A program made the translations under genes and the position numbers. DNA of 52,224 nt from Ignavibacteriota bacterium. GTDB taxonomy: Bacteria; Bacteroidota; Ignavibacteria; UBA10030. Positions 33,061 through 33,603 of the stretch are shown one piece after another; position 1 is the stretch's first letter; every line of letters begins with the position of its first letter. The stretch spans positions 1-52,224 of the forward strand of contig PMML01000057.1 of NCBI GenBank assembly GCA_003162695.1. The letters are read 5' to 3'. The notes beneath the pieces are model-generated. The model did not search any database. It saw nothing but the letters and a program-made list of their open reading frames with translations, and was not told the origin of the DNA.

Positions 33061-33119
33061 GGACGCTTAGCTCAGCTGGTTCAGAGCGCTGCTCCCGACT
33101 ACGTCGGGACAGAGGTCGT
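33061..33119 (+). pseudogene. tRNA-Val 5' fragment with replaced anticodon arm
   Basis: Bases 33,061-33,092 are identical to the first 32 bases of the complete tRNA-Val downstream (acceptor 5' strand, D arm and start of the anticodon stem). The next part, TCCCGACTACGTCGGGA (33,093-33,109), forms a 7-bp stem with a TAC loop and replaces the anticodon loop and upper stem. CAGAGGTCGT (33,110-33,119) again matches the tRNA. The T arm and 3' acceptor strand are missing; the GIY-YIG start codon follows two bases later. It cannot be a working tRNA. The reading frame of the nuclease is open right through it from 33,040. Confidence 0.88.
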
Positions 33120-33120
33120 T

Positions 33121-33375
33121 ATGAAATATTTTGTATATATTCTGTACAGCAAAATATTGGATCGATTTTACATCGGGACTACAAACAACATTGAACGCCG
33201 GCTCATACAGCATAACCGGCCGCATAAAGGATATACAAATTCCGGACAACCTTGGGTTTTATTATATTCAGAACAATTCGCTTCTAAGAAAAATGCTCTT
33301 ATAAGAGAGCGCCGCATTAAAAGAAAAAAGAGCAAGGAGTTTATTGAAAATTTAATTAAATCATCGGACGCTTAG
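33121..33375 (+). CDS. GIY-YIG endonuclease embedded in the tRNA-Val locus
   Basis: The 84-residue protein has the full small GIY-YIG (UPF0213/URI-like) layout: MKYFVYILYSK (GIY position read as VYI), RFYIGTTNNIERRLIQHN (YIG plus the catalytic Arg region), KGYTNSGQPW, and the catalytic Glu in IRERRIKRKKS. Such domains nick or cut DNA. The frame is open upstream to a GTG at 33,040 through the tRNA fragment, but family proteins begin at this ATG. The ORF has no stop of its own: TAG comes from bases 8-10 of the intact tRNA, so coding and tRNA overlap by ten bases. Position and fragments suggest a homing-type mobile gene targeting tRNA-Val. Confidence 0.92.
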   Translation: MKYFVYILYSKILDRFYIGTTNNIERRLIQHNRPHKGYTNSGQPWVLLYSEQFASKKNALIRERRIKRKKSKEFIENLIKSSDA

Positions 33376-33440
33376 CTCAGCTGGTTCAGAGCGCTGCCCT
33401 TACAAGGCAGAGGTCGTAGGTTCGAACCCTACAGCGTCCA
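33366..33440 (+). tRNA. tRNA-Val (anticodon TAC)
   Basis: A complete cloverleaf can be drawn: acceptor stem GGACGCT/AGCGTCC with discriminator A, D arm with CAGCTGGTTCAG, anticodon stem CTGCC/GGCAG with loop CTTACAA (anticodon TAC at 33,401-33,403), and T arm GTAGG-TTCGAAC-CCTAC (33,416-33,432). CCA is not encoded. It is the only intact copy at this locus and overlaps the 3' end of the GIY-YIG ORF, so its 5' end must be cut out of the nuclease message by RNase P. Confidence 0.97.
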
Positions 33441-33584
33441 CTCTGTTTTCTTCAAACTTCCTGCTTTTCTTTTGGTTCAGACCGCTGCTCCCGACTCTGC
33501 CGGGACAGAGGTCGTAGGTTCGAACCCTACAGCGTCCACTCTGTTTTCTCAAACTTCCTGCTTTTCTTTTGGTTCAGCGTCCAC
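33383..33584 (+). repeat. Tandem duplication of the tRNA 3' part and its trailer
   Basis: Two units start with GGTTCAG: 33,383-33,473 (91 bases) and 33,474-33,570 (97 bases). Each contains D-loop to 3' end of tRNA-Val plus a trailer (CTCTGTTTTCT...CTTTTCTTTT). The +6 difference is explained by a 7-base longer anticodon arm and a 1-base shorter trailer in unit 2. A third remnant, GGTTCAGCGTCCAC (33,571-33,584), joins the D-loop directly to the acceptor end, as if most of a unit were deleted. Confidence 0.85.
33474..33538 (+). pseudogene. tRNA-Val 3' fragment with replaced anticodon arm
   Basis: From the D-loop GGTTCAG to the 3' acceptor strand this copy matches the intact tRNA-Val, but the acceptor 5' strand and first half of the D arm are absent. 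In place of the anticodon loop it has TCCCGACTCTGCCGGGA (33,489-33,505), a stem with one A-C mismatch and a TCT loop, sharing both arms with the hairpin of the first fragment. The T arm is unchanged. It is not expected to work in translation. Confidence 0.85.
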
Positions 33585-33603
33585 ACAGAATTTGTACATG
33601 GCA

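Follow-up and report, generated by a model that had tools for sequence, protein, structure and literature searches.

SegB of the phages T4 and T6 is a free-standing GIY-YIG endonuclease found in tRNA clusters (PMC13096335; PMC2988022). It is reported to cut within tRNA genes and to yield tandem segB-tRNA arrays by recombination, and its motif RAWTSGAAC reads on the other strand as GTTCSAWTY, which corresponds to the tRNA T-loop (PMC13096335). In the part of a GIY-YIG phylogenomic study considered here, tRNA appears only via a TrmH fusion (PMC1564403). Our analysis of a 52,224-nt stretch of an Ignavibacteriota genome (contig PMML01000057.1, positions 1 to 52,224; hereafter the window) identified a GIY-YIG gene that resembles segB in adjoining tRNA genes and, in related genomes, in forming tandem arrays. 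It differs from SegB in being chromosomal, in encoding a bare domain of ∼85 aa and in having palindrome-bearing broken tRNA copies of the same isotype on either side. Moreover, the chromosomal family forms isotype-specific lineages, whereas SegB showed no isotype preference. The arrangement was not found described in the open-access literature searched, although a description elsewhere is possible. With moderate confidence we propose that the cassette is a homing element on bacterial chromosomes, SegB-like, minimal and intronless, which on insertion duplicates the target tRNA and keeps one functional copy. It is best explained as an element with a free-standing GIY-YIG nuclease as its sole gene and a tRNA gene as its home.

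In the window, an ORF for an 84-residue GIY-YIG nuclease (33121-33375, plus strand; PF01541, E=2.4e-16) lies between a 5' broken copy of tRNA-Val (33061-33119, plus strand) and the intact tRNA-Val(TAC) (33366-33441, plus strand), the one intact tRNA-Val called by ARAGORN. A 3' broken copy, beginning within the D-loop and reaching the tRNA end, follows at 33474-33539 on the same strand. This layout had been proposed in a preliminary description and was confirmed by the PF01541 match, ARAGORN and sequence identity; for the intact tRNA the start was correct, but the end given as 33,440 is 33441 according to ARAGORN. As stated before, the 5' copy is identical to the intact tRNA over two stretches of 32 and 10 bases that reach up to the ORF: it matches tRNA bases 1-32 with 100% identity (33061-33092) and then CAGAGGTCGT (33110-33119), the ATG of the ORF following one base later. 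The gap separating the two stretches is a palindrome, TCCCGACTACGTCGGGA (33093-33109), which stands in place of the anticodon loop. In the 3' copy, identical to the intact tRNA over bases 43-76, the anticodon loop is also swapped for a palindrome, of a different sequence (TCCCGACTCTGCCGGGA, 33489-33505), and the type of replacement seen in the 5' copy was found at L026 and in other genomes too. The stop codon of the ORF lies inside the intact tRNA-Val, the last 10 bases of the ORF being the first 10 of the tRNA. The 3' flank of the tRNA is locally duplicated (CTCTGTTTTC...TTTTGGTTCAG), with copy 1 read from the sequence at 33441-33480 and copy 2 at 33539-33585, the latter with a further remnant, GCGTCCAC, at its end; no strand is assigned to the palindromes or to the flank copies. 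The preliminary description had the core layout right and overlooked the palindromes, both orientations, the tandem arrays and this duplicated flank. RNA folding of the broken copies was ordinary compared to shuffles (z -1.1 and -1.4), so that an RNA function is unsupported by that measure.

Like group I introns with homing endonucleases in tRNA genes, the locus houses a putatively mobile nuclease gene in a tRNA gene. Unlike them, it has no intron, and the host tRNA is duplicated and not interrupted, with one copy intact. An intron-encoded homing endonuclease was rejected because the tRNA-Val at the window locus is complete and uninterrupted.

Genome comparison demonstrated that cassettes of this kind recur, adjoining tRNA genes on the same strand and in part as arrays. 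A second one is present at a tRNA-Ser in the window's own genome (L004:1381-1910, contig C125), in the order palindrome-bearing fragment, GIY-YIG ORF and tRNA-Ser, this tRNA being interrupted by assembly Ns. All 61 family and order genomes gave GIY-YIG matches, and 64 of the 121 contexts from these genomes have tRNA matches within 500 bp. Over the 121 contexts there are 169 tRNA matches on the same strand vs 3 weak ones on the opposite strand; for the 164 distinct domains, all strong tRNA matches, 163 in number, lie on the strand of the gene. The gap to the nearest tRNA piece has a median of 41 bp (87 labelled rows), and loci with an intact tRNA copy cover 24 isoacceptor classes. Since the arrangement recurs at dozens of loci, the layout in the window is not a product of chance. 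At 28 loci the gene precedes the intact tRNA, and the broken copy before it then usually begins at tRNA base 1; at 35 it follows the intact tRNA, and the broken copy after it then usually reaches the last base of the tRNA. Break points vary from locus to locus, and with the gene on either side of the intact copy in similar numbers, the single insertion point on the T-stem side assumed earlier is not supported.

An intact tRNA on the same strand stands beside the gene in 26 of 34 relatives from named genomes. The hosts of these 26 include the cultured Flavobacterium, Cyclobacterium, Aquiflexum, Allomuricauda/Muricauda and Rudanella, as well as MAGs labelled Acidobacteria, Dojkabacteria, delta proteobacterium and Erginobacter (phylum Auribacterota). 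Because cultured genomes carry the arrangement, an artefact of metagenome assembly is unlikely. Two outcomes that the preliminary description had named as speaking against the element, relatives at non-tRNA sites only and a lack of flanking tRNA fragments elsewhere, were not found; most relatives of the clade lie at tRNAs, with fragments.

Tandem arrays occur at L045, L054, L092, L126, L128 and L139. Together with the SegB precedent (PMC13096335), they could fit a module that benefits its host, in which tRNA dosage is amplified by the nuclease, or shielded by it from tRNA-cleaving defences or phages, in the way that SegB serves T6. We regard such a benefit as very improbable: the extra tRNA copies in the arrays read are nearly all broken, so that tRNA dosage hardly rises, and no defence genes were found among the window neighbours checked. 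These neighbours encode lectin-like, asparaginase, aminotransferase and DUF5686 proteins and one protein without family match.

The comparison of occupied and empty sites suggested earlier proved productive both at tRNA-Val and at tRNA-Arg. In six family genomes (L250, L253, L255, L258, L262, L264) tRNA-Val(TAC) adjoins the same asparaginase gene, at 71-81% identity, and the ORF is absent. At L253, L255, L262 and L264, four of the five empty loci inspected in sequence (all but L258), tRNA fragments are absent as well; L250 has a 3' remnant whose T-loop bears two palindromes. The intact tRNA-Val of the window does not differ from the tRNA of the orthologous empty locus in G007. In Flavobacterium ranwuense, the cassette is a 315-bp insert between tRNA repeats at tRNA-Arg(TCG), and the gene is absent at all 28 readable orthologous Flavobacterium tRNA-Arg loci fetched. 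Seven tRNA-Arg loci are occupied (L123, L129, L134, L149, L128, L187, L216), of which L128 and L134 belong to MAGs not assigned to Flavobacterium; synteny beyond the tRNA-Arg was checked only for the loci from the genome search. F. ranwuense has an intact tRNA of exactly the sequence seen at the empty site of G099, and between L123 (occupied) and L188 (empty) the sequence of the intact tRNA is unchanged, the palindromes disrupting the broken copies. In G121 (L216) the gene lies on the opposite side of the same tRNA-Arg, and both the broken copy and its 3' flank agree with the tRNA of that very species. The agreement of broken copies with the tRNA of their own host, seen at L216 and at L026, suggests a local duplication, or gene conversion at a later stage, and not simple import. 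Judged from these alignments, the gene appears at sites that are empty in matching alleles, as for free-standing homing endonucleases. The cassette seems to behave like a homing endonuclease gene and is a putative member of this class. The matched occupied and empty sites in cultured Flavobacterium make the homing idea directly testable.

Fragments of tRNA 3' ends are typical attachment remnants, and such fragments are present here. That the cassettes are what is left of an integrase-type island with the tRNA as attachment site is nevertheless barely credible, and we rejected an integrase-type genomic island. No integrase or other mobility gene was found among the window neighbours checked, 5' fragments occur as well as 3' fragments, and the Flavobacterium insert amounts to just 315 bp in total. 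Relatives were also absent from phage records (tblastn, 50,697 records, E≤1e-3), from plasmids and from IMG/VR viral contigs. The lack of a tblastn match in the phage records likewise led us to reject a close sequence relationship to the SegB family.

The tree of 164 GIY-YIG domains from relatives and named genomes, built on 73 columns with a midpoint root that limits proof from single branches, has two halves: in one, 85 of 97 rows are labelled with a tRNA close by, in the other 2 of 67. The small GIY-YIG proteins of the latter half, the sister clade, co-occur in the same genomes, but differ in lying away from tRNA genes, without flanking tRNA copies. Isotype labels change 33 times, compared to a mean of 54.7 and a minimum of 47 in 500 shuffles, and for 45 of 77 rows the nearest relative from another family has the same isotype, vs a mean of 8 and a maximum of 18 in shuffles. 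Both counts show lineages specific for their target, with isotype clusters that span families. Such a pattern could come from tRNA homology during repair, without the protein recognising the isotype. Recurrence, empty sites and isotype-specific lineages support the initial proposal that a small GIY-YIG element enters at tRNA genes while one complete copy is retained.

For a survey of the palindromes, intact and broken copies were aligned and inserts of at least 10 nt were collected (n=76). Of the 76 inserts, 61 hold an inverted repeat whose arms measure 4 bp or more, vs 37% of control pieces, and the mean palindrome arm is 5.7 in inserts vs 3.3 in shuffles. Many inserts consist of two different hairpins in tandem, for example TGCCGAAGGCA-TCCCTTTGGGA. 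Comparison between genomes also revealed recurrent positions that carry differing palindromes, at 31/32 and 40/41 in tRNA-Pro, 35 and 73-75 in Ser-GCT, 22 in Arg-TCG and 11-13 in Cys. Inserts in the T-arm are often located at GTTC^GA or GTT^CA (Val, Ala, Leu, Arg, Ser, Glu, Pro), others a few bases off. Since the SegB motif corresponds to the T-loop on the other strand, the GTTC^GA site falls where this motif lies.

Broken palindrome-bearing tRNA copies also occur without the gene (L251, L252, L259, L266), so that copies may arise or persist independently. In addition, TCCCTTTGGGA is dispersed in some genomes (36 matches in G015 vs 0 in the control, 18 vs 2 in G064) and not in the window's own genome. 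Both observations would suit passive hitch-hiking, in which tRNA genes are duplicated and decay by ordinary recombination, dispersed palindromes accumulate in the dead copies and the gene simply persists among them, perhaps because it was domesticated for repair and is expressed from the tRNA promoter. We consider this course improbable: it leaves unexplained the strict placement on the same strand, the isotype lineages across families and the clean presence and absence of the gene, as well as the sister clade, whose 67 GIY-YIG genes lie away from tRNAs.

For the homing element we infer a course with cutting by the nuclease, break repair as the route and the palindromes as a guard against re-cutting or excision. 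The nuclease would break a resident tRNA gene in one loop, and repair of the break would copy the nuclease gene in, the flanking tRNA sequence serving as homology and the tRNA being partly duplicated. One tRNA copy would stay intact and the host would be unharmed, the other copies surviving as fragments, 5' ones upstream or 3' ones downstream. Hairpin-forming repeats would then disrupt the broken copies at loop sites, which would block re-cutting as well as recombinational loss of the gene. The requirement for tRNA homology would hold each lineage to its own isotype, and tandem arrays would result from repeated rounds at the intact copy. Points that weigh against this course are the lack of a DNA-binding domain in the protein, the unchanged intact tRNA at occupied sites, the agreement of broken copies with the tRNA of their host and the broken copies at loci without the gene. 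If this reading is true, the cassette is a minimal mobile element that spares an essential gene by leaving one good copy, and that ranges over the chromosomes of Bacteroidota and Ignavibacteria as well as several further phyla. Homing into tRNA genes of the SegB type would then reach from phages to bacterial chromosomes, and the element is a possible source of many broken, hairpin-bearing tRNA copies near GIY-YIG genes.

The window protein is a member of the GIY-YIG superfamily by its motifs, its conserved Arg and Glu and its alpha/beta fold. Residues Y6, Y17, G19, R27 and E63 are invariant among 11 aligned relatives; these had diverged too far for their alignment to serve in a degenerate-pattern scan, and a single protein was used instead. 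The AlphaFold2 model (pLDDT 87.9) predicts a bare catalytic domain without a separate DNA-binding domain, unlike I-TevI. Its closest PDB structures are UPF0213 and Slx1, the Slx1 match including a study of branched-DNA recognition, and I-TevI scores far lower. The window protein shares size and fold with UPF0213, small GIY-YIG proteins and Slx1, and is presumably an active DNA nuclease.

These structural matches favour a structure-directed element, in which a small Slx1-like enzyme cuts hairpin or branched DNA and targets tRNA genes, as single-stranded cloverleaf, and palindromic repeats. The palindromes of the broken tRNAs would be the same hairpin repeats copied to the cut loops, and tRNA homology, not the protein, would set the isotype. 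In line with this, palindromes are found at the D-, anticodon- and T-loops of many loci, and eight rows that branch within the tRNA clade sit not at a tRNA but inside an inverted repeat of the kind CACCCCGTGAGATA...TATCTCACGGGGTG, of which some of the subclade have only one exact arm (L085/L235, L246, L071, L086, L093, L053, L075, L111, L132). Gene-less CACCCCGTGAGATA...TATCTCACGGGGTG repeats occur as well, and contig C173 of G058 holds a filled and a gene-less one with similar flanks. The subclade, for which Rfam gave no match, appears to link the GIY-YIG family to hairpin DNA. However, copies of the inverted repeat are few, CACCCCGTGAGATA having any match in 9 of 61 relatives, and many inserts map within stems and not at loop tips, although the alignment there is ambiguous. 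Overall, we hold a structure-directed element to be unlikely. In a broader form, put forward here with considerable doubt, the ∼85-aa Slx1-like nuclease would be a widespread undescribed minimal selfish element that colonises hairpin DNA, both palindromic repeats and, one isotype at a time, tRNA genes, with the tRNA-loop palindromes marking cut sites. If so, its activity would have left traces in these phyla in the form of tRNA pseudogenes and of many palindromic repeats. REP/REPIN palindromes with their RAYTs are comparable in that small paired hairpins are tied to a small nuclease gene family, but RAYTs are HuH tyrosine enzymes, whereas here the enzyme is of the GIY-YIG type and the link to hairpins is positional only.

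Three minor observations concern palindromes away from the nuclease gene. At L251, L252, L256 and L259, palindrome-separated pieces of tRNA-Val adjoin the intact tRNA, with no GIY-YIG gene, and are possibly fossils of lost cassettes. Upstream of the tRNA-Val of G040 (L266), where the nuclease gene is absent, there are five tandem copies of approximately the first 15 bases of the tRNA, spaced by ∼59 bp and each followed by a small palindrome. In the window's own genome (L011:840-930, contig C97), the palindrome TCCCGACTTTGTCGGGA stands just ahead of the CRISPR-like string GTGGATTGAAAC and looks like a substitute for the hairpin of a CRISPR repeat.
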